A DNA stretch of 64,000 nt, taken from contig JAEUUC010000001.1 in the NCBI GenBank assembly GCA_016787665.1, positions 1 to 64,000 on the forward strand, written 5' to 3'. Each line of letters opens with the position of its first letter. Position 1 is the first letter of the stretch. Source of the DNA: Cyclobacteriaceae bacterium. GTDB lineage: Bacteria > Bacteroidota > Bacteroidia > Cytophagales > Cyclobacteriaceae. The position numbers and the translations under genes were made by a program. The notes beneath the pieces are model-generated. The model was not told the DNA's origin and made no database searches. It saw nothing but the letters and a program-made list of their open reading frames with translations. Of this stretch, positions 1 through 10,899 are shown in pieces.

Positions 1-117
1 GATTTCAAATGATCTACTTGCTTGTCTCACAGTGTCACTAAAAGTTTGTTCAGTTGTCGCTCTCTGATTCGTACAACCAATTGTCAAAAGGAATATGATT
101 ATTGAAACTTGTCTCAT
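1..117 (-). CDS. Partial cassette gene, N-terminus of a small lipoprotein
   Basis: The first 39 codons of a minus-strand gene that runs off the left edge. The protein begins MRQVSIIIFLLTIGCTNQ, a short hydrophobic signal sequence ending in a lipobox-like T-I-G-C, so an exported lipoprotein is expected. The start codon lies 16 nt from the AAC of the first attC-like repeat, like the other cassette genes. The signal peptide resembles that of the frameshifted lipoprotein at 3609-4195. Function is unknown because the mature part is outside the window. Confidence 0.6.
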   Translation of the reverse strand, partial: MRQVSIIIFLLTIGCTNQRATTEQTFSDTVRQASRSFEI

Positions 118-133
118 TTTAGATATGCGCCAC

Positions 134-295
134 AACGTTTGTGTTTATGCAGTGCGGGGAATAGGAGGGCTAAAAAATGTAGCGCAGCGAAATGTTTAGC
201 CTGACCAGTACGTCTCTGTCCCCCGACACTGAACTAAATTAAGAAAATACTTTTAATACTTACACCAAACCCCCGCATTGCATAAACATGTTGTT
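134..295 (-). repeat. attC-like cassette site 1 (long class, 162 bp)
   Basis: Bounded by AAC on the left and GTT on the right. Inner arms TGTTTATGCAGTGCGGGG and CCCCGCATTGCATAAACA pair except for one G-T. The spacer between AAC and arm is 5 nt (GTTTG), and between arm and GTT 4 nt (TGTT). An extra hairpin (GGCTAAA with TTTAGCC) sits between AGGAG and GACC. A minus-strand TAATTTAG at 234-241 resembles a -7 promoter box. Confidence 0.8.
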
Positions 296-311
296 ACCGC
301 CAGTGCCCATT

Positions 312-1208
312 TCATTGTCCATCGATACTTTGAGTCCACCAATTAAAATTGTCGGAGATAATTATTTCATGTTTCTCCAAATGATGTGTCGTTTTCATCG
401 GAGTTGTCCTGAAGTCCAAATTGTATTTGTAAGCTAGATGACGTATTTCAGAAGTGTCGTCATACGTTAGCATGTACTTGCCTTTAAGCTTTGATGTCAA
501 GTAGAATAGTTTTTCGTGGTCAATGTCAAAGTGGGTATATAGTCGTTTACCAGCAACCGTATAAGGAGGGTCGATAAAAAAATATGCACTTTTATTGTCT
601 ATGTATTCGGCTAAGATTTCAAAGGCATCACCTTTTATAAAATCCATTTTGTTTTTTACAAAGTCGATTGCAACAATCCTGTCATGTAAAGTTTGAGGAT
701 ACCAGCGTGAAGAAATTCCCTTTCCATTCTCCCCGTTTTTTATCATTCCCGAACCCTTGGCGAGAATCCCTCCATGAAAAATTCGATTCTTTAGAATGGT
801 GCAGAATGCAATGTCATTTATGTTTTTATTAGGTTTATCTAATTCTTTCTTAACGTTCTCATGAGTGAGGTCAAACTTTAAAATCTTTTCTGCAAGCCAT
901 TTGTTTTTACCTGTCAAAATTACTTCCCAAACAGCAGCAATTTCTTCATCCATTTCAACCATTGTTATGTGGCTGGCTAACTTTTCAAATGCGGCTGTTA
1001 AACTTACAATGCCCCCACCAGCAAAGGGTTCAATCAATAGATTAGCTTGGGTTCCATTTTGCTTTAACCATTGCCGAACGATAGGAATTAACCATGTCTT
1101 TCCGCCTGGATATCTAAATGGACTTCGTTGAGGAACCGAAGCGACATTTACTATTGTATTCGCTGGTATACTGTTGCCAACTTCAAATATGGTAAGTTGG
1201 CTTTTCAT
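312..1208 (-). CDS. DNA adenine methyltransferase (D12 class, Dam-like), cassette-borne
   Basis: 298 aa. The motif FRYPGGK near residue 31 is the AdoMet-binding motif X of D12-class N6-adenine methylases. EPFAGGG near residue 60 is motif I, and the catalytic motif IV is DPPYT near residue 213. It should methylate adenine in a short target. It overlaps the stop of the upstream restriction gene (1205-2083) by 4 bp, so the two are translationally coupled and form a type II restriction-modification pair in one cassette. The methylase comes second in the transcript. The gene ends about 17 nt from the GTT junction at 293, leaving little spare sequence, as is typical of compact cassettes. The recognition site cannot be read from the sequence. 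Confidence 0.88.
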   Translation of the reverse strand: MKSQLTIFEVGNSIPANTIVNVASVPQRSPFRYPGGKTWLIPIVRQWLKQNGTQANLLIEPFAGGGIVSLTAAFEKLASHITMVEMDEEIAAVWEVILTGKNKWLAEKILKFDLTHENVKKELDKPNKNINDIAFCTILKNRIFHGGILAKGSGMIKNGENGKGISSRWYPQTLHDRIVAIDFVKNKMDFIKGDAFEILAEYIDNKSAYFFIDPPYTVAGKRLYTHFDIDHEKLFYLTSKLKGKYMLTYDDTSEIRHLAYKYNLDFRTTPMKTTHHLEKHEIIISDNFNWWTQSIDGQ

Positions 1209-2083
1209 TCGACTACAATATTTTCGTTGTCCGGGTCAGCCTTTCCAGCTCTCTTTGCGTCAAGTTTCTTCTGAAGCAATTCAGTAAACTCTTTTATTGA
1301 GCCAGCTTCAAACTTTGCAATTTGCTCTAAAGCCTTAGCAAACTTTGTATAAACTATCCTTTGTAGTTTTAATTCTAAAGTTTTGCTCTTCGTTGGAACG
1401 AGGTCATATAAGAAAAAGGCGAAATCAGATTCTGATTTGTCGAATTCGGGTAAATCTGGAAGGGTTTTATAAAAACTTGTTTGAAGTGCAACGACCTGTT
1501 TCTTTTTCCATTGTTTAAGAATTGAACCTTTAGCAATTATCTGAGGAATAAGTCTTTTCCTAGAAGATGAAAGGTAGTCTGGTTTAGGAAATTTGAATGC
1601 TTGAGTCCATGTAAAGCTCGGTGAAGGCTCTTCTAAGTAAGCTGTAAATGGTCCAGTTAAATTTCCGGAAATGTAAACTGCTTGAACCTCTAATGAGCCA
1701 AAGTCAACTACCCGACCTTTGTCGTCATAAGAAACAAGAACATAGTCGATGTTCCCCGCTGATTTACCATGCTTGTCCTTTAAGCGGACTTCACCCACAT
1801 GTGTCCATGTAGCTTTTTTGTCAAAGATGAAGCTTGCTGCATCGCTAATAATACTCCAATCCTCTCTAAATCTAATTGGGCAAATGATAACCGGCTTTTC
1901 CTTGTGATTTAAACTGCAAACACCTAAAGGAAATTCAATGCTATTCTTGGTGCAATTCGAAACAATGTTATTGAATGGACAAAGCTTGTTTTCTCTGTAA
2001 CGGTTTGCTCTTGCCGACTCATTATTTATCGGAAACCCAAAGACTTCTGCTAGCGGCTGGTTGGGTGCTTTTTCTTCAATCAT
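1205..2083 (-). CDS. NotI-like type II restriction endonuclease, cassette-borne
   Basis: 292 aa. The N-terminal part has the pattern FGFPINN, then CPF, then CTKNS, then PLGVCS, then ICPIRFRED. Cysteines near residues 35, 44, 56 and 69 resemble the Fe-Cys4 site reported for the NotI family (Pfam RE_NotI). A central GxIDYVLVSYD followed by DFGSLEVQAVYISG fits a PD-(D/E)xK nuclease core. The downstream coupled adenine methylase supports a restriction role. The 156-nt leader between the start and the cassette junction at 2242 is longer than for other cassettes and could hold its own promoter: TAAATTTG, a perfect -7 box, lies just before the start codon. Cleavage specificity is not inferable; an 8-bp NotI-type site is only possible. 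Confidence 0.75.
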   Translation of the reverse strand: MIEEKAPNQPLAEVFGFPINNESARANRYRENKLCPFNNIVSNCTKNSIEFPLGVCSLNHKEKPVIICPIRFREDWSIISDAASFIFDKKATWTHVGEVRLKDKHGKSAGNIDYVLVSYDDKGRVVDFGSLEVQAVYISGNLTGPFTAYLEEPSPSFTWTQAFKFPKPDYLSSSRKRLIPQIIAKGSILKQWKKKQVVALQTSFYKTLPDLPEFDKSESDFAFFLYDLVPTKSKTLELKLQRIVYTKFAKALEQIAKFEAGSIKEFTELLQKKLDAKRAGKADPDNENIVVE

Positions 2084-2239
2084 CCTTCAAATTTAGTCAA
2101 ATCTCGCAGTTTTTTCCACCCGAATTTGTCCGGCACCCAATTCTTTAAGGTCTGATTGTCAACCGTTTAATTTCTTGTCTGCGGAACTCAATCTTTCAGA
2201 TTTTGTCGTCACTGTCCGCGGACTCGGGGCATTGGCGGT

Positions 2240-2402
2240 AACGTTTGGGTTTGGGCAGTGGCGGGCTTAGGAGGCCTTAGCAATGGAGCATCGCGGAATG
2301 CTAAGGCCGACCAGGTCGTCACTGTCTACCGTGGGCAAACGTTGTAGCGAAGATAACACTTTATGTTTACACATCACCCCGCCATTGACCAAACCTGGTG
2401 TT
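2240..2402 (-). repeat. attC-like cassette site 2 (long class, 163 bp)
   Basis: AAC at 2240-2242 and GTT at 2400-2402. Arms GGTTTGGGCAGTGGCGGG and CCCGCCATTGACCAAACC pair with two non-Watson-Crick positions. The inner hairpin is GGCCTTAGCA with TGCTAAGGCC, bracketed by AGGAG and GACC. A minus-strand TATCTTCG at 2348-2355 is a candidate -7 box. About 90 percent identical to site 3 at 2954-3114, suggesting recent duplication. Confidence 0.85.
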
Positions 2403-2416
2403 GGTGGCCGTATTTT

Positions 2417-2932
2417 TCAACTCGATCCCAATAAGAAGTGTATTGTCTTAAGGGCACTTATTGCGTGTCGCCCCCAGTGTTTTTCAAAACCGAATTTCAT
2501 GTCCCACACTGCGTCTTCCTTGCTCGCCATAGTCCCGAGGTCAAAAATCATAAGTCCATATTTCATGTCCTTATAAATATCGCCAAGGTCGTCAACCAAA
2601 TCTCCACATACCGCCTCGGTGTCCTTTTCGTTCGTAGGATCGAAAACCTCCCAATAGTATCGATTTTGTCCAACCTTGTCAGCAATTACACTAAGTATCT
2701 TATCGAATTCCTCTTTTGATAATTTATCTTTAAATTCTTCTTCGTGTTCTAAGGTTGTCCAAGGGAGATTCGTTGCATTTAGATACAGTGTCAACAATAA
2801 GGACTGAAGTTTTCTTAGATATTCTATGTCAGTCGTGTCCGTTGATTCGATGAAAGCACAATAGTTTCTCGCAGTCAGCAAGAAGTCCTTTGTTTCTTTT
2901 AATTCAATAACTTTTTCGATCGAAGAATCCAT
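2417..2932 (-). CDS. DUF5063 family protein, cassette-borne
   Basis: 171 aa, acidic and helical, without signal peptide. It shows the features I associate with DUF5063: NYCAFIE near the N-terminus, LLLTLYLNATNLP in the middle, YYWEVFDP, then GDLVDDLGDIYKDMKYGL and a C-terminal FEKHWGRHAISALKTIH. The family has no established function that I know of; members are cytoplasmic. The start codon is 22 nt from the junction at 2956 and the stop 15 nt from the opposite GTT, so the gene fills the cassette completely. Transcription must therefore come from the preceding repeat or from read-through. Confidence 0.75.
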   Translation of the reverse strand: MDSSIEKVIELKETKDFLLTARNYCAFIESTDTTDIEYLRKLQSLLLTLYLNATNLPWTTLEHEEEFKDKLSKEEFDKILSVIADKVGQNRYYWEVFDPTNEKDTEAVCGDLVDDLGDIYKDMKYGLMIFDLGTMASKEDAVWDMKFGFEKHWGRHAISALKTIHFLLGSS

Positions 2933-2953
2933 TGTCCAAAAAATATAGCCACC

Positions 2954-3114
2954 AACGTTTGGGTTTGGGCAGTGGCGGGCTTAGGAGGCCTTAGCAATGG
3001 AGCATCGCGAAATGCTAAGGCCGACCAGGTCGTCACTGTCCGCATTGGGTAAACGTTGTAGCGAAGATAAACTTTATTGTACACATCACCCCGCCATTGG
3101 CCAAACCTGGTGTT
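2954..3114 (-). repeat. attC-like cassette site 3 (long class, 161 bp)
   Basis: AAC at 2954-2956 and GTT at 3112-3114. Near-copy of site 2 with the same arms and the same AGGAG-hairpin-GACC insert. TATCTTCG at 3062-3069 on the minus strand is a candidate -7 box. The cassette between sites 2 and 3 has complementary ends over 18 bp (GTTGGTGGC at the start), differing only at positions 10-11. Confidence 0.85.
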
Positions 3115-3129
3115 GTGCGTCCGTAGTTT

Positions 3130-3435
3130 TCAAAGTCCCAAATGTCGAGCGATGACTCTCTCTAACTCTCCAATGTCTGAGATGTTAAAGTCTCCTGCTG
3201 GCTCGTGAGGATAGTCGTCAGTCTCTTTTGAATTCTCCAACGCTACATAAAAGTCATTGTCCCCGTACACAGAAATATACACCAAGTGTTTTTCTTCATT
3301 GTCTGCAAGTCCGATTGCATTTAAGTCTTCGTCCCAGTGGTCTTTTATTTTAAAATTGTCTTTTCCAAACTTGTCCGTCATGTGTCGAACTACTGACTTA
3401 ATTTTGTCGTCTTTGTTTAATTTTTTATAGCTCAT
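3130..3435 (-). CDS. Hypothetical cassette protein (101 aa)
   Basis: Small soluble charged protein beginning MSYKKLNKDDKIKSVV. I chose the ATG at 3435 over an in-frame ATG at 3459, because the latter would start exactly on the recombination junction. The start is then 25 nt inside, like the neighbouring cassettes. The sequence has an internal HLVYISVYGDNDFYVALE beta segment and a C-terminal helix. I do not recognise a family. It could be an immunity or toxin-related small protein as in other integron cassettes, but nothing in the sequence shows that. Confidence 0.65.
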   Translation of the reverse strand: MSYKKLNKDDKIKSVVRHMTDKFGKDNFKIKDHWDEDLNAIGLADNEEKHLVYISVYGDNDFYVALENSKETDDYPHEPAGDFNISDIGELERVIARHLGL

Positions 3436-3459
3436 AATCGTCCGAAAACTATGGCGCAC

Positions 3460-3582
3460 AACGGTTAGTATTTATGACGGCTTGGGCTTTTGAAATCCAA
3501 TCCGTCCCACGAAACTAAATTAAGTAAAGAATATGAAACTACAATTTAACACTTCACCCCAAGCTGGCATAAATACAATGTT
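3460..3582 (-). repeat. attC-like cassette site 4 (short class, 123 bp)
   Basis: AAC at 3460-3462, GTT at 3580-3582. Arms GTATTTATGACGGCTTGGG and CCCAAGCTGGCATAAATAC. Pairing is broken only at two positions in the ACG versus CCA block, the same block as in sites 8, 9 and 10. It lacks the extra AGGAG hairpin. TAATTTAG at 3515-3522 on the minus strand has a TTG 19 nt upstream, a reasonable Bacteroidota promoter. Confidence 0.85.
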
Positions 3583-3608
3583 GTGGGTAGTGCCGCCTTC
3601 ACGTCACC

Positions 3609-4195
3609 TTATTCCTTAAACTTCAACGTCCCGAATGCTTGGAGTAATTGTCTCTCATTATCAGGTTGTAAGTTTCTCCCATTTATCTGCAAACGGTCAG
3701 TTCCAGAACCTTTCGTCCAGAGACTGTCGAAATAAACACCGGTCAATCCAGTTCCGGTTTGCTTTGGTTGAACAATCTTAGCTCGTTTACCGTCAATAGT
3801 CGTCCACCTACTTGTATCTTTTTTAAGTTTTTCGATGTCAACAGTGTCGACTTTGCCGTAGAATTTTAGATTGCCTTTCTCGTCTACTAAATTGACGTCA
3901 CTACCGTTAATGAATATTGATTCGTCTTCAAGTGAGTTTGAATACCAACCCAAATCAAATGATGCGGTGTCACCTTTGTCAAGTGCAATTAGTCCGACAT
4001 ACGAATCTATCCCTCTACCTTAACTTGTTTCCATGTCGGTGGTACTTGAATGGTGAAAGCTCTGAAGTCTAAAGTTGTCCAAGTGTCAGGAACTACAACC
4101 TTGTATTCTTCAAAGTTCTGTTTTTTTGTCTCTTGGTTCTGTCGGTCGGTACAACCCAGAACTGTGAATAGTATGATTGTTATTCGAAGTCTCAT
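3609..4195 (-). pseudogene. Frameshifted lipoprotein gene in a cassette
   Basis: Two minus-strand reading frames form one protein. The upstream part starts at 4195 with MRLRITIILFTVLGCTD, a lipoprotein signal peptide with lipobox V-L-G-C, and continues to FTIQVPPTWKQVKVEG followed by a stop at 4007. The downstream frame carries on seamlessly as IDSYVGLIALDKGDT to the stop at 3609. One extra G in the GGG run near 4012-4014 would restore a single ORF of about 196 aa. The stretch PPTWKQVKVEGIDSYVGL resembles proteins with a short membrane-associated beta domain, but I cannot name a family. Either a real inactivating deletion or a sequencing error in a short homopolymer. Confidence 0.65.
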
Positions 4196-4217
4196 CTGTC
4201 TTGGCGGCATTACCCAC

Positions 4218-4338
4218 AACGTTTGTGCTTCTGCAGTAGCGCGCTTTCGAAGCCGCGTCCTGTCCCCGAAACCAAACGCTGAACGAAGATAACACTTATA
4301 GCTTACACCTCACCGCGCTATTGCAGAAGCATTTTGTT
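4218..4338 (-). repeat. attC-like cassette site 5 (short class, 121 bp)
   Basis: AAC at 4218-4220, GTT at 4336-4338. Arms TGCTTCTGCAGTAGCGCG and CGCGCTATTGCAGAAGCA pair except for one G-T. Compared with site 12, arm differences are compensated on the opposite arm. TATCTTCG at 4284-4291 (minus) is a candidate -7 box. The preceding cassette has ends complementary over 15 bp with only position 11 mismatched. Confidence 0.88.
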
Positions 4339-4349
4339 GGCAGCCGTTT

Positions 4350-4847
4350 CTAATTTTCTTCAATCGCGTGTCCGATACTTTTAAAATATTCTCTCAATCT
4401 TTCGAATACTTTAGAGTCTGTCTTGATAGTATTAAAGTGTTCGTCCTCCACTCGGTCGCATGAAAGACAAATATTTAAGATAGACACAACTTTGTCCGAC
4501 TTGTCATAAAACACAATCATCTCTCTGAAAATTGGTGCGCACATCGAGTCATTATGGTTTTTATAGTCCAATGACAATATTGATAATAATTCAACTGTCT
4601 CAGGGTCCGATTTATTAAAAGTGTTTGTCCGTACAGCTGTCGGATGGGGTGTTCCAGTTTCAATTAAAATTTCCTTTGTCCCCCGTATTGTCAGGTCGAT
4701 TAGTTTTCTTTTTTCATTTTTATCTAGAGTCGTCTTTGCCTTCGTCTGCAAATTGTCAACGTAGTCCTTTGTCTCTTCCTCTCTAAGAAGAGAAAATGTC
4801 TTTATGTAGTCAAAGTCCACTTCTCTAATGTATTCTTTTGTCGTCAT
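4350..4847 (-). CDS. Hypothetical cassette protein (165 aa)
   Basis: Starts MTTKEYIREVDFDYIKTFS at 4847; an in-frame ATG at 4928 lies inside the attC-like repeat and is rejected. The start is 24 nt from the junction. The protein is soluble and charged, predicted helical in the N-terminal half, with a beta-type core REMIVFYDKSDKVVSILNIC followed by LSCDRVEDE. The C-x2-C spacing (NICLSC) could bind a metal or be coincidental. The final helix is FERLREYFKSIGHAI. I do not recognise a family. Confidence 0.65.
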   Translation of the reverse strand: MTTKEYIREVDFDYIKTFSLLREEETKDYVDNLQTKAKTTLDKNEKRKLIDLTIRGTKEILIETGTPHPTAVRTNTFNKSDPETVELLSILSLDYKNHNDSMCAPIFREMIVFYDKSDKVVSILNICLSCDRVEDEHFNTIKTDSKVFERLREYFKSIGHAIEEN

Positions 4848-4870
4848 GTTGTCGGGTAGAAATGGCTGCC

Positions 4871-4991
4871 AACGTTTGTGTTTGCGCAGTGGTGGCTTAT
4901 TGAAACCGCGTCCTATCCACGTGGGCAAACGTAATATAAAAACTAAACTTCATACCTTGATATCCCGCCACCATTGCGCAAACATTCTGTT
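4871..4991 (-). repeat. attC-like cassette site 6 (short class, 121 bp)
   Basis: AAC at 4871-4873, GTT at 4989-4991. Arms TGTTTGCGCAGTGGTGGC and CCACCATTGCGCAAACA, with the standard G-T at the CAGTG/CATTG step. Minus-strand TATATTACG at 4930-4938 is in the usual promoter position. The preceding cassette ends pair GTTGGCAGCC with GGCTGCCAAC and then resume after the position-11 mismatch. Confidence 0.85.
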
Positions 4992-5007
4992 GTGGGCTGG
5001 CAGGCTG

Positions 5008-5418
5008 TCATAGGTTATTTACAATTACCTGTCCCTTTACCCATTCAATCATCTGTCGTCTCTTGAAGTCAAACCATTTTTGTCTGAAGGGTCCCGATTG
5101 ATCAACCTCAAATTTGAAATTTCTAAAAGGTCCCGGTTTACTTAATGCTTCCTCAAATCTGTTCTTTAGTCTAGCGTCCCCAACCGTCTCAATAAAATTC
5201 GTCATTAGTCGAAATGATTCGTTGGTGTCCATCTTTTCAATTTCAACATATTTCTCAAAGTCGTTAACCTCGTTAAGTACTTTGTTCCAATATTTAAAGT
5301 TGTCCTCGTGTTCGTCAATGTCCAGCACAGTTACAATTTTCTTTTCTTGTCGGTGTACGAAACATCGTAGTCCGGAGTCCAGGTTGTCCGCGAGCTCAAC
5401 TATTTGTTCGTCAGTCAT
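5008..5418 (-). CDS. UPF0158 family protein, cassette-borne
   Basis: 136 aa from the ATG at 5418 (MTDEQIVELADNLDSGLRCF). The layout matches the UPF0158 family: an N-terminal helix-strand unit ending in DSGLRCFVHRQEKKIVTV, a central SFRLMTNFIETVGDARL helix, then RFEEALSKPGPFRNFKFEV and a C-terminal WFDFKRRQMIEWV. No molecular function is established for the family as far as I know. Cytoplasmic. Start is 33 nt from the junction at 5451; stop is 16 nt from the GTT at 4991. Confidence 0.75.
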   Translation of the reverse strand: MTDEQIVELADNLDSGLRCFVHRQEKKIVTVLDIDEHEDNFKYWNKVLNEVNDFEKYVEIEKMDTNESFRLMTNFIETVGDARLKNRFEEALSKPGPFRNFKFEVDQSGPFRQKWFDFKRRQMIEWVKGQVIVNNL

Positions 5419-5450
5419 AAGTTGTAGAATCTGTCCGCCTGCTTGCCCAC

Positions 5451-5610
5451 AACGTGAGTGCATATTCAGTTTGGCGGATTAGGAGCCTTGTTAAGGCCGA
5501 TAGGCCGACAAGGCGACCAAGTTGAAATCTGTCCCACGTGACAAATGTAAATAATGAAACTGAAACTTAATGAGGACACCGAGCCCGCCAAATTGAATAT
5601 GCACATTGTT
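5451..5610 (-). repeat. attC-like cassette site 7 (long class, 160 bp)
   Basis: AAC at 5451-5453, GTT at 5608-5610. Arms GTGCATATTCAGTTTGGCGG and CCGCCAAATTGAATATGCAC pair over 20 bp with a single G-T. The extra hairpin GCCTTGT with ACAAGGC is bracketed by AGGAG and GACC. Minus-strand TACATTTG at 5542-5549 matches the -7 consensus TAnnTTTG exactly. Confidence 0.88.
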
Positions 5611-5990
5611 GGCAACCGTTGGGCCTTCGTCCGTTATTGTCACACGTTTCTTAGTCTTTTCCAGTCGATTGTTTTGAAGTCGGCCAGTTGTCCACTGTCA
5701 ACGAAGCCCAACTCCATATTTAAAGAGTCGATTTCGTTTTTTTATTTTCGAGTTCACCGTTACTGTCAGCGGAAACGAAATTTAGTCCACGTGTTGCGTC
5801 CCGATTGTTATCGGGATGTCCACGGACTCTGAATTTCCTTTCAGTCCTTTTGTTTTTGAATTTTTCTCCACCGTCTACGGAAATGGAATTTGTCCACGTG
5901 TTGTAAACTGTCAGCGGAGCCTTTTGAATTTTTGTCGACCGAATTTGTCGGCTTACACGTCTCTGTCCACGAGCCGGCCCAATGGTTGCC
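5611..5990. other. Non-coding cassette body A (about 380 bp)
   Basis: Lies between sites 7 and 8 and has cassette ends complementary over 18 bp (GTTGGCAACC at the start) with one mismatch at position 11. No convincing ORF: frames are short, low in complexity and start inside repeats. It shares aligned blocks along its whole length with cassette 7093-7465, including CCTTCGTCCGTTATTGTC near the left end and TCAACGAAGCC further in. A palindrome TCCCGATTGTTATCGGGA lies at 5799-5816. Rich in TGTC on the plus strand. It may encode an RNA or be the remnant of a gene. Confidence 0.6.
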
Positions 5991-6152
5991 AACGTTGGTG
6001 CATGTGACGTATTGCGGCATAGGAGCTAAAGCCTAATGAGGAACGAATGGCTTTAGCGACCTGCTGCGTTTTGTCCCACGACACCGAACGAAATTAAGAA
6101 ACTAAAACTAAAATGCTACACTGAACCAGCAATATGGCACATGCACACTGTT
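5991..6152 (-). repeat. attC-like cassette site 8 (long class, 162 bp)
   Basis: AAC at 5991-5993, GTT at 6150-6152. Arms GTGCATGTGACGTATTGC and GCAATATGGCACATGCAC mismatch only in the ACG versus CCA block. Extra hairpin GCTAAAGCC with GGCTTTAGC between AGGAG and GACC. Minus-strand TAATTTCG at 6089-6096. Read on the minus strand the flanking core is GTTAGGT at the cassette start, a perfect match to the classical integron core GTTRRRY. Confidence 0.88.
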
Positions 6153-6174
6153 AGGTGCTGGCCGCTTCCCTCAT

Positions 6175-6909
6175 CTATTGAATTGGTCCAATTTTCGTTT
6201 CGTACCTTGCTATTTCTTGTTCAGTATTTGTCAATAAAATGGAACAAAATGTTTCTAATTGGATATTCTTGTGTCCCTTAGTCCTTGTTATTTCTAGAAG
6301 TCTCTTTAGTCCTTCATTAACAATAAGTTTAGCGTTTTCAAAAGTAAAACAGGCAAATCTCCATTCAACACCTACACCTAATTCCGGATGAGTAACTGCT
6401 TGTCCAACGTCACTTTTTGGATGAATAGCCATATCTCGAAATCTAAATATTTCCTTGATTGACTGTTTTAAAATCTTTGTTCCTTCATTCTTAATTTTGA
6501 AACCAAGTCTAATGGTTTCTGAAATCTGAATATGTCTAGCGGTTCTATTGTTTTTCCATTTGTCCGCTAAGTCCACTGGGATTTTAATCTTGCTTTTAAT
6601 TGAAGCATAAAAGGAGTCGTACGCTATGGCAATTGCAATGATTGCTTGCATTGAGTGCTCAAATTCTTTTTCCAAAGTCTGAGATTTTAAAATATTGTCA
6701 GAGGTTTTCCATGCATCCCGTCTTTTTACACTCCATTCTTTCGCTTGTTCTAGGTGGTCAACAGAAAGTTTAAGCCACGCTGGACAAATGTCATAGTGTA
6801 GACTCAGTGTAACTTTCATTTCAGTCTCTCCCTTTTCGTTGAGGGAGATAACCAAGTCACCCGGTTTTATTATTGGGGTAATTCCTTTTGAAATAAAAAT
6901 TCCTCCCAT
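6175..6909 (-). CDS. Hypothetical cassette protein with possible HEPN-like motif (244 aa)
   Basis: Soluble, mostly helical protein beginning MGGIFISKGITPIIKPGDLV. The segment IFRFRDMAIHPKSD near residue 160 contains R-x4-H, the signature spacing of HEPN RNases, set in a helical context after a long N-terminal helical domain (EHSMQAIIAIAIAYDSFYA). HEPN proteins often act as toxins or defence effectors, but the match is one motif and is inference only. The start is 60 nt from the junction at 6969 and the stop 23 nt from the GTT. No partner antitoxin is visible. Confidence 0.65.
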   Translation of the reverse strand: MGGIFISKGITPIIKPGDLVISLNEKGETEMKVTLSLHYDICPAWLKLSVDHLEQAKEWSVKRRDAWKTSDNILKSQTLEKEFEHSMQAIIAIAIAYDSFYASIKSKIKIPVDLADKWKNNRTARHIQISETIRLGFKIKNEGTKILKQSIKEIFRFRDMAIHPKSDVGQAVTHPELGVGVEWRFACFTFENAKLIVNEGLKRLLEITRTKGHKNIQLETFCSILLTNTEQEIARYETKIGPIQ

Positions 6910-6968
6910 GATTTTATTGTTGTCGTCCGTTGAAACTCAGTTGTCAACTCTGTCCGCGGCTTGCACCT

Positions 6969-7092
6969 AACGACCAGTGTTTATGACGGCTGCGGCTTTC
7001 GAAGCCGTTATTGTCCACCGTTGCGGAAGCTAATTTAAGAGAACAAAACTACAATTCAACCTATCGCCCGCAGCTGGCATAAACACGCTGTT
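6969..7092 (-). repeat. attC-like cassette site 9 (short class, 124 bp)
   Basis: AAC at 6969-6971, GTT at 7090-7092. Arms GTGTTTATGACGGCTGCGG and CCGCAGCTGGCATAAACAC, mismatched only at the ACG/CCA block. It contains a small GGCTTTCGAAGCC hairpin in place of the long-class insert. Minus-strand TAAATTAG at 7030-7037 is the promoter-position element. The preceding cassette core on the minus strand reads GTTAGGT and ACCTAAC, the classical integron pair. Confidence 0.88.
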
Positions 7093-7465
7093 GTGGCCTG
7101 TTGGCCTTCGTCCGTTATTGTCACACGTCTCTTAATTTTTCTTATCGATTAGTTTGAAGTCGATCAGTTGTCTCCAGTCAACGAAGCCAACTCTATATTT
7201 TTTGAGTCAATGTCATTTTCATTTTTTTTCAAGTCCACCGGTACTGTCAGCGGACTCAAATCTTGCCTGCCTGTCGGCAGACAGGTCCACCGATGAATTG
7301 TCCTCGGACACGAATTTTCCTCTCTGTCATTTTATTTCTCTGCGGAGATGTATCGTGTCCACGAGTTCTAAATGTCAGCGCAGAAGTCAAACGTCTTTTG
7401 AATTTTTGTCAGGCAGAATTTTTCAGTTACACATCACTGTCCACCGAGCCAGGCCAATTGGCCAC
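7093..7465. other. Non-coding cassette body B (about 370 bp), paralogue of body A
   Basis: Cassette between sites 9 and 10, with ends GTTGTGGCC and GGCCACAAC plus the TG/AA mismatch at positions 10-11. The best reading frames are short and cross the repeat boundaries, so I call no gene. It is homologous to body A (5611-5990) along its length but carries a different palindrome, around 7266-7285 (CCTGCCTGTCGGCAGACAGG), at roughly the equivalent place. Both palindromes resemble the short dispersed palindromes common in Cytophagales genomes (recalled, not searched). Confidence 0.6.
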
Positions 7466-7588
7466 AACGTTTCGTGTTTATGACGGCTGCGGTTTTCGAA
7501 GCCGTCTTTGTCCCCCGTGGGTGAACGAAATTAATAAAACCAAACTACATTTCACACTATCACCCGCAGTTGGCATAAACACGGTGTT
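7466..7588 (-). repeat. attC-like cassette site 10 (short class, 123 bp)
   Basis: AAC at 7466-7468, GTT at 7586-7588. Arms GTGTTTATGACGGCTGCGG and CCGCAGTTGGCATAAACAC. Very like site 9 in sequence. Minus-strand TAATTTCG at 7526-7533 sits in the promoter position. Confidence 0.88.
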
Positions 7589-7812
7589 AGCTGTAGTTGG
7601 CCTGTCTGGGTACGGGTGCGATGAACTGTCCAACGAAGTGCGCAAAAATATCGAACTCGTTGATAACGGCTCAGATGAAATGCGCACTATCGCGCGGTCG
7701 GGCGGGGGGACGGGTGAGGTGAATTGTCCTACAAGGTGCGCCAAAGGATCGTGATCGTTGATGAATTCTCTATGAAAGATAAACTGTCTGTGGGTCGGGG
7801 CCAATTACAGCT
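7589..7812. other. Non-coding cassette body C (about 225 bp)
   Basis: Shortest cassette. Its ends are complementary over 17 bp (GTTAGCTGTA at the start, TTACAGCTAAC at the end) with only position 11 mismatched. It includes a G-rich run and several TGTC words. No ORF with an initiation codon at the expected distance from the junction is visible on the minus strand. It may specify a small RNA or be a decayed gene. Confidence 0.55.
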
Positions 7813-7973
7813 AACGTTGGTGCATATGACGTTGCCGGGAAAGGAGCCAAAGTAAATGAGCGTAGCGAAATGACTTTGGCGACCTGCCGTCTTTGTCCCA
7901 CGTGAACAGACGTTGTTAAGTAACGAAACTACAAATAAACCCGAACCCCGGCAATGGCCATATGCACACTGTT
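7813..7973 (-). repeat. attC-like cassette site 11 (long class, 161 bp)
   Basis: AAC at 7813-7815, GTT at 7971-7973. Arms GTGCATATGACGTTGCCGG and CCGGCAATGGCCATATGCAC with a 3-versus-4 nt internal bubble. Extra hairpin GCCAAAGT with ACTTTGGC between AGGAG and GACC. The promoter position holds TAACAACG (minus, 7911-7918), the weakest match of the set. Confidence 0.85.
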
Positions 7974-7986
7974 GGGCGCTGTTTTG

Positions 7987-8424
7987 CTAATCGTGAAATA
8001 CAATTAGTCCGTAATGTCCAACGTCATGTCCCTCTTCAAATGTCGCAGCTATTATGTCGATACGATACTCAGCCGTAAATGGTGGTTTAAATGTCACAAT
8101 GGCGTTTGGTTTAACTTCTTCATCTTTCTCAACTAATGACCATTGGTTGTTGACCCATTTGTAAACTTTAATGTCAATGTCTTTAATACGAAAGTCTCCA
8201 AAAGCCAAAATGCCATACTCAAAATCTGCCGTCAGAGTTCGGAATGTCGATTTCGATGTTTGAACAATGTCGAACTCCATTCTTACAATTTCTTGTCCCA
8301 ATTCCATTTCAATTTTTTTTGCCAAGGTTCCAGCGTCAGACAGAATTGCCGCCATTGTCAATTCTTCTTTTTGTCCAAATGCAAAACATGGTACAAGTAA
8401 AATTGTCAAAAGAATATTTCTCAT
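7987..8424 (-). CDS. Hypothetical exported cassette protein (145 aa)
   Basis: The ATG at 8424 gives MRNILLTILLVPCFAFGQKEE, a clear signal peptide with likely cleavage after FAFG; an ATG farther upstream (8529) lies inside the repeat and is rejected. The mature protein has a helical start (ILSDAGTLAKKIEMELGQEIV), then a beta-rich body (GILAFGDFRIKDIDIKVYKWV) ending in GHYGLIVFHD. It is probably periplasmic or surface exposed. No family recognised. The start is 54 nt from the junction at 8479 and the stop 14 nt from the GTT at 7973. Confidence 0.65.
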   Translation of the reverse strand: MRNILLTILLVPCFAFGQKEELTMAAILSDAGTLAKKIEMELGQEIVRMEFDIVQTSKSTFRTLTADFEYGILAFGDFRIKDIDIKVYKWVNNQWSLVEKDEEVKPNAIVTFKPPFTAEYRIDIIAATFEEGHDVGHYGLIVFHD

Positions 8425-8478
8425 GATTTTATTCGTTTTATGTCCATTGTCTAATTTGTCACTAGCAAAATTGCGCCC

Positions 8479-8601
8479 AACGTTTGTGTTTCTGCAGTGG
8501 TGCGCTTCCGAAGCCGCGTATTGTCCCACGAAACCAAACGTGGAACGAAGATAAAAACTTATAGCTTACACGTCACCGCACCATTGCAGAAACATTTTGT
8601 T
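8479..8601 (-). repeat. attC-like cassette site 12 (short class, 123 bp)
   Basis: AAC at 8479-8481, GTT at 8599-8601. Arms TGTTTCTGCAGTGGTGCG and CGCACCATTGCAGAAACA with one G-T. It is the sister of site 5, and every arm difference between them is compensated. TATCTTCG at 8546-8553 (minus). The preceding cassette core on the minus strand is GTTGGGC / GCCCAAC, matching the integron core consensus. Confidence 0.88.
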
Positions 8602-9403
8602 AGCGGCTGGCTCGCTTCTCGGTCGTCTTATAAAAGTTACAAAAATCAGTCACGCCACATAGTTCACATTTAGGATTTGTCTCCAGACAGATACCTCCTT
8701 TTATTTTAAACATGTCGCTGGTACCTTGTTGTCCGTACTTAACAAATATGATGTCCACGTACCTAATTGGCTTCTTTGTCGCCTCTGAAAATTTACGTCC
8801 TTGAATAACTGTCTTTAATAGTTGTTTTTCATTTTCAATTAGTCCAAGTCGTTTAAAAATTCTTGCTAATACTCTGTCTGGTTTTATTGCGTTTAATCCT
8901 ATGTCAGTTAGAAAATGATAAACCGTTATTCCGCCTAAATAGTCAAACTTATACTCTAATTCTTCTTTGAGTAACATTAGATTTTCAAAAGAGTCGTTTG
9001 GTGAAAACTTGTCGATATAGTTTTGAAAAGTCCCGTTCTCTTTAACTATTTCTTCAAATGTCCTTGCGTTGTTAACTGTCGCTGAAATTTTCCCTTGATT
9101 CTTAATCATGTCTTTGTCTGACATAATTTTCTCTATTCCACTTTTGTCAATTCGTGAAACTGTTTTGTAGTCGGGGAAATGTTTATTGATTATAGGTTCT
9201 TTTTTCTCAACCGTCACCGCTTTAAACCCTGAGTAGAATACAATCATTTTAAGAATGTCGAAGTACTCGTCATCTGTTCTTTGTCTGAAGGATTGGTTGT
9301 AAAATCTTGAGTAGACTTGTTCAAATTCCTTCTCGGTCAAATCTGTCAGCCGTTTTAAGGAGTTCTCAACTCTGTCAAATATGTCTTTGTAGTTGTCTGT
9401 CAC
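8600..9403 (-). CDS. HhH-GPD base-excision DNA glycosylase with Fe-S type cysteines (TagI/Nth-like), cassette-borne
   Basis: 267 aa. The C-terminal CLETNPKCELCGVTDFC has the C-x6-C-x2-C-x5-C spacing of the [4Fe-4S] loop of endonuclease III-type glycosylases. The N-terminal half (YSGFKAVTVEKK, then HFPDYKTVSRI, then ISATVNNARTFEEIV) recalls 3-methyladenine glycosylase I, and GGITVYHFLTDIGLNAIKPDRVLARIF is the helix-hairpin-helix and catalytic-Asp region. Predicted to remove a damaged or modified base. It is the cassette nearest the recombinase. Its stop codon TAA is formed from the recombination core (CGCTAAC), so the gene ends exactly on the junction. Start 34 nt from the AAC at 9437. Confidence 0.78.
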   Translation of the reverse strand: MTDNYKDIFDRVENSLKRLTDLTEKEFEQVYSRFYNQSFRQRTDDEYFDILKMIVFYSGFKAVTVEKKEPIINKHFPDYKTVSRIDKSGIEKIMSDKDMIKNQGKISATVNNARTFEEIVKENGTFQNYIDKFSPNDSFENLMLLKEELEYKFDYLGGITVYHFLTDIGLNAIKPDRVLARIFKRLGLIENEKQLLKTVIQGRKFSEATKKPIRYVDIIFVKYGQQGTSDMFKIKGGICLETNPKCELCGVTDFCNFYKTTEKRASR

Positions 9404-9436
9404 TTTATTGTCTGGTTGTTCCGCGAGCTTGCCGCT

Positions 9437-9548
9437 AACGTATGTGCTTGTGCAATTGAATGTATTTTATTTATGGCATTTCCGCAACCAAAACCCCCAA
9501 AAAAGCCCTCAAGGGCCCTAAAATCGCGGATATATTTTTTGTGCAGTT
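9437..9548 (-). other. Candidate array-end site (attI-like) between array and recombinase
   Basis: AAC at 9437-9439 closes the last cassette, whose ends pair as GTTAGCGGC/GCCGCTAAC with TG/AA at positions 10-11. The following sequence begins like a repeat (GTATGTGCTTGTGCAATTG) but no right arm follows. Instead, the near-identical words TTGTGCAATT (9448-9457) and TTGTGCAGTT (9539-9548) form a direct repeat flanking about 80 bp and reaching the recombinase stop codon. An unfolded site with direct repeats beside the integrase is what an attI would look like. Inference only. Confidence 0.4.
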
Positions 9549-10719
9549 AGTCATCCCCCCGCAACTTCTTCGATTGCACAATCTGGTCAAGCGGGCTCAC
9601 AACCTTATCCAACCCAAACCGCGTAACCTGGGCGTAAATCTCGGTGGTCTTCGGGCTTTCATGCCCCAGCAACACCTGTATGTAACGGGTCGAGGTGCCC
9701 CCCTCCAGCAGGTGCGTAGCAAAAGAATGCCGCAACATGTGCAGGTGCACATGCTTACGAATGCCCGCCCCGGCTGCCGCCTGCTTCAGCACCGCCTGCA
9801 AACTCGTTTCGCTGTAACGCTGCCCGCGCTGCCCCTCAAAAAGCCAAAGGGCCGGCTCGTACTTAGCCAGGTACTCGCGCAAGAACGGCACCAGGCTGGC
9901 CGCTAATACACTCTGCCGGTCCTTTCTGCCCTTGCCTCCCCGAATAAATACCAGGTGGCGGTCCAGATCCACATCGCCTGTGCGCAACGCCAGCAGCTCA
10001 CTTCGCCTCAACCCGGCCGAGTAAATCACCATTAGCATCACGCGGTGTTTCAGATTACCGGCAGCCTCGAACAGCGCCATAATCTCCTGCTGACTCAATA
10101 CCTGCGGCAACTTCTTCTCTTTCATCGGGCGCTCCAGGTAATACACCTTCTTCTCCTGCTTCAGCACCTTCTCGTAAAAAAACTTAATGGCGTTAATGGC
10201 CTGGTTCTGCGTACTCTTCGCCACCTTCTTCTTGTCCACCAGGTACAGCAGGTAAGCCTGAATTTCATCTTCCCCCAAATCAGCCGGGTGGCTGCCTGGG
10301 AAAAAGCGCATAAACAAACTGAACTGATCCAGGTACGTTTTTTGGGTTGAAGCCGAGTAGCCCTTCAATTTTAGTTTTTGCTCAATCAGCCGTAAAGCCT
10401 GTAGCTGATCGGGGTGGGGCGTAGCTTCGCGAATGTTCGTGACGCGCGCAATCGACTTATCGCCAGCGTCTGCTTTGGGCTCAGCTGCCGGTTGGCTGCG
10501 CAGCGCATGTATATCCAGGTAGGCTTTGTCTTTAAACAATCGGAATAATTCCTTCAGCCGGTTGGGTGTGTCGTTAATGTACCAGCATCGGTGTGTCGCA
10601 CTGAAACGCGCATCGGGTATCGTTCGCACCAATTTCATTAACACCTCGTCTTTCGGGAAGCGAAGCGCCAAACGCGGTTCATTGCGGTGAAAAAGCTTCT
10701 CAACTTTAATCGTAATCAT
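9547..10719 (-). CDS. Tyrosine recombinase at the end of the cassette array
   Basis: 390 aa from the ATG at 10719 (MITIKVEKLFHRNEPRLALR). An upstream in-frame start at 10854 would add a low-quality stretch through a GC-rich palindrome. Residues 1-85 form an extra domain with FSATHRCWYIND. Residues about 105-195 are the SAM-like core-binding domain (GYSASTQKTYLDQF and STQNQAINAIKFFYEKVL, close to integron IntI wording). The catalytic domain has R in AGLRRSELL, K in GGKGRKD, HMLRH, LLGHES and the nucleophile in EIYAQV. All R-K-H-R-H-Y residues are present. The roughly 20-residue insertion that IntI carries between the lysine strand and the HxxR box is absent. It is read in the same direction as the cassettes, so it probably acts on the flanking repeats. 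Confidence 0.88.
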   Translation of the reverse strand: MITIKVEKLFHRNEPRLALRFPKDEVLMKLVRTIPDARFSATHRCWYINDTPNRLKELFRLFKDKAYLDIHALRSQPAAEPKADAGDKSIARVTNIREATPHPDQLQALRLIEQKLKLKGYSASTQKTYLDQFSLFMRFFPGSHPADLGEDEIQAYLLYLVDKKKVAKSTQNQAINAIKFFYEKVLKQEKKVYYLERPMKEKKLPQVLSQQEIMALFEAAGNLKHRVMLMVIYSAGLRRSELLALRTGDVDLDRHLVFIRGGKGRKDRQSVLAASLVPFLREYLAKYEPALWLFEGQRGQRYSETSLQAVLKQAAAGAGIRKHVHLHMLRHSFATHLLEGGTSTRYIQVLLGHESPKTTEIYAQVTRFGLDKVVSPLDQIVQSKKLRGDD

Positions 10720-10736
10720 GATTAAAATCAGATCAG

Positions 10737-10744
10737 CGAATATA
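10737..10744 (-). promoter_or_regulatory. Candidate -7 box for the recombinase
   Basis: Minus-strand TATATTCG about 18 nt upstream of the start codon. It resembles the TATCTTCG and TAATTTCG boxes inside the attC-like repeats. Confidence 0.4.
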
Positions 10745-10792
10745 ATGAATAAAATACCTCCAGGTGTGGCCGAGTTGTCCATTAAAAGTGGG

Positions 10793-10836
10793 CAGCCCCG
10801 CCCCGCCTTGCGGGGCGGCCGGGCTTTGCGGGGCTG
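10793..10836. repeat. GC-rich nested palindrome upstream of the recombinase
   Basis: Outer arms CAGCCCCGC and GCGGGGCTG enclose an inner CCCCGCC-TTG-CGGGG hairpin. The composition differs sharply from the AT-rich array and the segment marks the boundary between array and chromosome. It could be a dispersed palindromic repeat or a transcription barrier. The 10837-10899 stretch has nothing further recognisable. Confidence 0.6.
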
Positions 10837-10899
10837 TCGGTGCTGCGCACCCACGCTTCGCGCGGCCCCTTCAATCCCTGGCTGAGGTCAGTCCTCAAA

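Follow-up and report, generated by a model that had tools for sequence, protein, structure and literature searches.

What are the repeats that separate the genes at the start of contig JAEUUC010000001.1 (GenBank assembly GCA_016787665.1), from a Cyclobacteriaceae bacterium? The stretch analysed, positions 1 to 64,000 of the forward strand and here called the window, contains twelve of these long inverted repeats, all on one strand; the genome has 35. We consider it likely that they are the recombination sites of an integron-like cassette platform, which would recombine folded single strands without the I2 helix of integron integrases. This reading draws on sequence evidence of five kinds: the hairpins themselves, the ends of the cassettes between them, a mismatch rule, the co-location of a recombinase, and signs of cassette movement.

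Paired changes in the arms of the repeats

The first-pass annotation of this DNA had drawn attention to compensatory base changes between two of the repeats:

4221-4335, plus strand: attC-like hairpin 5 (repeat 5 of that annotation), arms 4226-4243 and 4314-4331
8482-8598, plus strand: attC-like hairpin 12 (repeat 12), arms 8487-8504 and 8577-8594

The arms lie, and read, exactly as claimed there, and the stems do differ at three positions, 3, 13 and 15 (C-G to T-A, A-T to G-C and C-G to T-A), each balanced on the opposite arm. For a broader view, a covariance model was built from the 12 window repeats and 182 anchored sites were gathered from the source genome and its relatives. Within a site, the two arms pair on average at 15.5 of 18 positions; the mean falls to 10.6 if each arm is matched with that of a different site. 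To respect shared ancestry, changes were counted in 36 disjoint sister pairs picked by loop similarity: 148 stem positions carried a double change, one in each arm, and 52 a change in a single arm; of the 148 doubles, 134 are Watson-Crick pairs in both sisters. Sliding the partner by 1-2 bases gave 64-71 double and 171-185 single changes, with 1-5 doubles that kept Watson-Crick pairing. Compensation between arms is thus well beyond chance and general across sites, uncompensated variation being in the minority.

The annotation had taken the three changes as direct evidence of selection for a folded single strand or an RNA. Selection for pairing within one strand is well supported, by the sister-pair covariation and, above all, by the kept mismatch described next. 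"Direct" claims too much, since compensation alone could come from arm-to-arm copying in inverted repeats; the RNA part found no support, as set out below.

A mismatch kept at one position

Each site folds into two stems with 4-5 unpaired bases per side between them, an attC-type layout with R and L boxes and a central spacer. The stems pair without bulges, and carry a conserved G.T in place of bulged (extrahelical) bases. Stem positions are 88-100% Watson-Crick, with two exceptions: position 9 reaches 71%, and 94% of 124 sites have G.T at position 11. Counting distinct stems, G.T occupies position 11 in 68 of 74, compared with 23 of 1258 positions elsewhere. Repeats 5 and 12 follow the rule, with a G.T pair on the plus strand and an A.C mismatch on the minus strand. 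The "unpaired step" that the first-pass annotation saw as kept is indeed conserved, at position 11, but as usually a G.T wobble on the plus strand it is not strictly unpaired there.

The same position is marked at the cassette ends: position 11 is A at all 106 sense starts, and the base at the opposite end, G in 90 of them, in no case pairs with it. Other site families in the class behave alike: each of the 27 distinct stems has a single G.T in a fixed position, and position 11 is unpaired in 30 of 31 cassettes. Overall the difference is kept in 150+ cases. In a duplex both arms consist of ordinary base pairs, and the mismatch arises only in a strand folded back on itself; nothing points more strongly to a folded strand being read than the conservation of this mismatch. 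Arm-to-arm copying is disfavoured, because it would erase it.

Single-gene cassettes with complementary ends

The repeats sit between minus-strand genes, and every junction reads ...AAC|G...hairpin...|GTT.... From position 1 to 9439 the window is an array of single-gene cassettes separated by attC-like sites; across loci, the longest open reading frame (ORF) runs in one common sense in 103 of 116 cassettes. Among 118 cassettes lying between adjacent sites, the two ends of a cassette match at 5.47 of 6 variable positions (4-9), whereas the value is 2.80 for shuffled ends and likewise for the flanks on either side of a hairpin. A cassette's own ends are complementary in 106 of the 118, over intervals of 230-2974 bases. 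Joining them lowers the mean predicted folding energy from -27.6 to -38.8 kcal/mol, and the energy falls in 102 of 103 cases. The remaining features of the array and its borders are as follows.

9547-10854, minus: tyrosine recombinase, likely start 10719, 390 amino acids
9440-9546, minus: attI-like region from the recombinase (int) stop to the first cassette; junction CATAC|GTT at 9439/9440
8599-9439, minus: first cassette, DNA glycosylase-like ORF 8600-9403; ends GTTAGCGGC(AA)GCTCGC and GTTAGCGGC(TG)GCTCGC
7971-8481, minus: cassette with an ORF at about 7987-8463 (no family); its two ends are complementary for 9+8 nt, flanking position 11
7816-7970, plus: attC-like hairpin 11
7586-7815, minus: cassette of 230 nt, no clear ORF
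7469-7585, plus: attC-like hairpin 10
7090-7468, minus: cassette, no clear sense ORF; 70% similar to 5608-5993
6972-7089, plus: attC-like hairpin 9
6150-6971, minus: cassette, 244-residue ORF 6175-6909, no family
5994-6149, plus: attC-like hairpin 8
5608-5993, minus: cassette, no clear ORF
5454-5607, plus: attC-like hairpin 7
4989-5453, minus: cassette with UPF0158 protein, ORF in 5008-5463
4874-4988, plus: attC-like hairpin 6
4336-4873, minus: cassette, ORF in 4350-4928, no family
3580-4220, minus: cassette; a relative in another genome (L076) has the same right end
3463-3579, plus: attC-like hairpin 4
3112-3462, minus: cassette, ORF 3130-3459
2957-3111, plus: attC-like hairpin 3
2400-2956, minus: cassette with DUF5063 protein, 2417-2932
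2243-2399, plus: attC-like hairpin 2
293-2242, minus: two-gene cassette, NotI-like restriction enzyme 1205-2083 and D12-class adenine methyltransferase 312-1208
137-292, plus: attC-like hairpin 1; the array continues to the contig end

Site length is either about 117 or about 156 nt. The longer sites (137-292, 2243-2399, 2957-3111, 5454-5607, 5994-6149, 7816-7970) carry an extra inner stem-loop within the loop, for example GGCCTTAGCAATGG..GCATCGCG..GCTAAGGCC. Cassettes 5608-5993 and 7090-7468 contain an imperfect internal direct repeat (CTGTCAGCGGA motifs), and a related cassette is found in genome G008 (L075). A second array, of about a dozen sites, lies at the end of contig C4 (G000:C4:462408-472582, L038); as both arrays stop at contig breaks, it may continue into that of the window.

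The adjoining recombinase

The protein encoded next to the array has the catalytic motifs of a tyrosine recombinase (HxLRHSFATH and GHxSxxTTEIY; Pfam PF00589, 132.7 bits) and consists of an N-terminal domain of about 70 residues, a core-binding SAM-like domain and the catalytic domain. Its best NCBIfam model is that of the integron integrases (TIGR02249, 221.3 bits, below the curated cut-off of 265), followed by archaeal-type XerA (NF040815, 212.9 bits, below the cut-off of 220). The closest solved relative is the Vibrio integron integrase VchIntIA (2A3V), residues 184-237 of which are unmatched in the alignment; the counterparts of its H240 and H241 are Gln and Arg. The unmatched segment includes K209, Y210, W219 and P232, through which VchIntIA touches the bulged attC bases (PMC3053210). 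From GKGxKDR to HxLRHSFATH the spacing is 76 residues in all 12 array recombinases compared, against 118 in all seven IntI proteins of the same phylum. On alignment and spacing, the recombinase lacks the additional domain of IntI (I2 helix), of about 42 residues. In a phylogenetic tree the array recombinases form one clade (95/94) separate from that of IntI (100/98); the tree includes only two Xer rows, both long-branched, and its rooting cannot decide whether the recombinase is sister to IntI.

At the loci examined, the recombinase is followed downstream by the array, toward which it points, and shares the sense of the cassettes. Where a first site was available it was always downstream of the int stop and had the opposite strand label. 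A GTT junction follows soon after the stop in nearly every locus, preceded in several by a short perfect palindrome.

The N-terminal 70 or so residues (window 10400-10719, minus strand) are conserved and include a W(S)xTxxCWYVP-like motif; in one relative this domain matches DUF5710 (E 3e-7). It is possibly a nucleic-acid-binding addition specific to this recombinase family.

Cassette movement and probable insertion sites

In genome G023, two arrays separated by 1 Mb each hold a copy of a 1-kb gene, and the copies are 99.8% identical. The match begins at the CAACG left of the left hairpin and ends after CAACGTT on the right; between the copies the left hairpins reach an identity of 0.99 and the right ones 0.74, the background being 0.62. 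These bounds make the moving unit the hairpin and the gene to its right, cut at AAC/GTT, which is what is expected of an integron. A second duplicated pair, in G007, behaves similarly. The solitary sites of the source genome are single cassettes, for which a partner end with 11/11 matches was present in four of seven tested, although for two of these the controls, too, reached 11 in a single scan out of 60. Single cassettes begin at short palindromic attI-like targets common to several loci. Judged from such sequence comparisons, cassettes move as units cut at the site.

One of the shared targets is a dispersed element of about 95 bases (AATTTA..CATACGCSTRACGC..T-run and a short palindrome), with five copies (L227-L231) in G000: C5:413211-413286(-), C5:144111-144187(+), C4:88184-88260(+), C5:421582-421657(-) and C5:370415-370445(+). 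A cassette end occurs at the same junction in four of the five; the fifth seems unoccupied or decayed. Such elements are probably orphan attI-like insertion sites without a recombinase. C5:421628, considered as an empty attI-like site, was rejected: it carries a cassette end with a mutated junction. Two further single cassettes, L039 (G000:C7:29.5k) and L044 (G000:C4:331k), begin at a second, different shared palindromic target, TATATTCGTTTGCCGAACGTATATAGCGAGAC|GTT in gene sense.

A proposed mechanism and its alternatives

In the mechanism we propose, the mobile unit would be one hairpin with the gene to its right in window coordinates or, in the sense of the gene, the gene and then its site. 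In the excised circle the cassette's own ends would meet, hairpin and ends forming one long stem with a gap of 4-5 bases at the junction. The folded plus strand ("bottom" relative to the genes) is the probable substrate, the strand being assigned by analogy. The adjoining recombinase, which we infer to be the actor, would bind both stems of the folded strand, each with its fixed non-Watson-Crick pair, usually G.T, some 11 positions from the junction; the G.T step would probably set the register, distinguish the two strands, or both. Exchange would take place at the conserved AAC/GTT with an attI-like or array junction, and the cassette would insert behind the recombinase's own stop codon (the attI-like junction) or, singly, at dispersed palindromic attI-like sites.

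Several observations weigh against this proposal. The plus strand is predicted to be energetically the better in 107 of 163 sites, with a gap between the folded strands of about 1 kcal/mol, so small that strand choice through stability alone would be weak; an energy difference was dropped as the basis of strand choice for this reason. Of three window sites folded individually, two gave a minus strand equal to or better than the plus. Cassette ends flanking one hairpin in the array match no better than shuffled ends, and the long outer stem would therefore exist only in the excised circle. The recombinase of one genome (G366) is in the opposite orientation, and another genome (G361) has sites but no strong recombinase. 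Lastly, a structure prediction from a three-sequence alignment reached a pLDDT (predicted local distance difference test) score of 55, too poor to be used.

The most serious competitor keeps the platform and changes the substrate: recombination would be Xer-like, between double strands, the arms serving as half-sites, the position-11 G/A as a left/right label, and arm copying accounting for the compensation. The lack of the single-strand domain of IntI suits it, as does the small difference in folding energy between strands, and asymmetry of the duplex could indeed label half-sites. Yet recognition of duplex half-sites does not explain why the arms of each individual site should co-vary, or why cassette ends up to 3 kb apart should match over about 17 nt, and copying would erase the very difference at position 11 that persists. 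We regard recombination of double strands as unlikely.

Considerably less probable still is an ordinary cluster of attC sites lacking integron integrases (CALIN), one that has lost its IntI and beside which the recombinase is a bystander. The overall layout is attC-like and integrase-less clusters are common in surveys (PMC9024848), but the recombinase recurs beside the sites, genome after genome and in one orientation, and co-occurs with them; the source genome (completeness 100) has no classical IntI match above cut-off; and the sites of true integrons of the same phylum obey different rules, as detailed below.

Structured RNAs or transcription signals (terminators, riboswitches, small RNAs), or repeats like repetitive extragenic palindromes or miniature inverted-repeat transposable elements, are scarcely credible: intergenic stem-loops with compensated changes would fit them, but pairing also links cassette ends across 230-2974 coding bases, the repeat moves with the gene on one side only, cut at AAC/GTT, a recombinase adjoins, and an Rfam search found no family for the repeats, its sole match being a tRNA.

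Distribution and significance

Strong matches to the recombinase occur in 13 of 14 site-bearing and 2 of 10 site-less genomes (24 genomes of the class; Fisher p = 0.0005). Sites are present in 33 of 39 nearest-relative genomes, and in 81 of 149 genomes (60 of 100 genera) sampled from class Bacteroidia. Named relatives of the recombinase are from metagenome-assembled genomes of Cyclobacteriaceae and Flammeovirgaceae.

A literature search of open-licence papers, preprints not included, yielded no description of such a system. Surveys of integrons require the IntI domain (PMC9668308, PMC2426708), and within Bacteroidetes itself the IntegronFinder 2.0 survey listed a single complete integron, that of Salinibacter (PMC9024848). 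Arrays of the present kind would escape the surveys consulted, which depended on the IntI domain or on IntI/attC models derived from it. If our reading is right, about half of the sampled Bacteroidia genomes carry uncounted gene-exchange sites, with restriction-modification cargo included.

The accepted origin of integrons is a double-strand recombinase that acquired the I2 helix. The authors of that work speak of a chicken-and-egg paradox: how the helix could be selected before hairpin sites, or the sites before the helix (PMC4792948). A system combining hairpin sites, moving cassettes and a helix-less integrase makes the question of helix or hairpin first a testable one. We raise, while standing slightly short of evenly divided over it, the bolder suggestion that this is a second, separate folded-strand cassette system, class-wide in Bacteroidia, whose helix-less recombinase reads the G.T, and which is either an independent invention or near the missing intermediate of integron evolution.

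Comparison with known systems

The system would work in the manner of an integron but lacks two of the defining features, the IntI domain and the bulged bases. Like integrons, sedentary chromosomal ones and CALINs included, it has a one-sense array of single-gene cassettes, each followed by a palindromic site, with a recombinase adjoining; a GTT/AAC exchange junction; cassettes whose own ends are complementary; and cassettes that move singly. It differs first in the recombinase: the additional domain (I2 helix) around patch III, with which all known integron integrases read such hairpins and hold the bulged bases, and which is called defining and necessary for them (PMC9668308, PMC2426708, PMC7790495), is lacking. 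The task of setting register or choosing the strand falls in classical integrons to the bulged bases together with the I2 helix (PMC2727003, PMC7790495), whereas here no bases are bulged on one arm and a fixed G.T stands in both stems. The recombinase here points toward the array, and the attI-like sites are short palindromes that also occur without a recombinase.

True integrons of the same phylum (having IntI with its insert; 38 cassettes, found by a loose hairpin search and an nhmmer profile) served as control; a cyanobacterial plasmid integron was rejected, having no usable array. Cassette ends in the control are complementary without interruption for 10-12 nt, with position 11 paired in 74%; pairing thus extends unbroken for about 11 nt there, against about 17 nt with position 11 unpaired here. 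Identity at positions 12-17 is 82% here and 37% in the control. The R-box consensus GTTRRRY/RYYYAAC was dropped as a discriminator: 8% of ends here conform to it, but so do only 22% in the same-phylum true integrons.

With XerCD/dif and CTXphi-type integration, in which Xer recombinases act on a folded phage strand, the system shares a tyrosine recombinase without the I2 helix, and a bulge-free hairpin is discussed as recombining there; CTXphi, however, relies on the Xer of its host and lacks a cassette array (PMC4792948). Unlike Xer, the recombinase here is dedicated, falls in a clade separate from both Xer sequences of the tree, and is accompanied by a conserved mismatch in every stem. XerA (NF040815) is a housekeeping enzyme of dimer resolution. 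It resembles the present recombinase in needing no IntI insert, and differs in that the recombinase described here has an extra N-terminal domain and an array of cassettes beside it.

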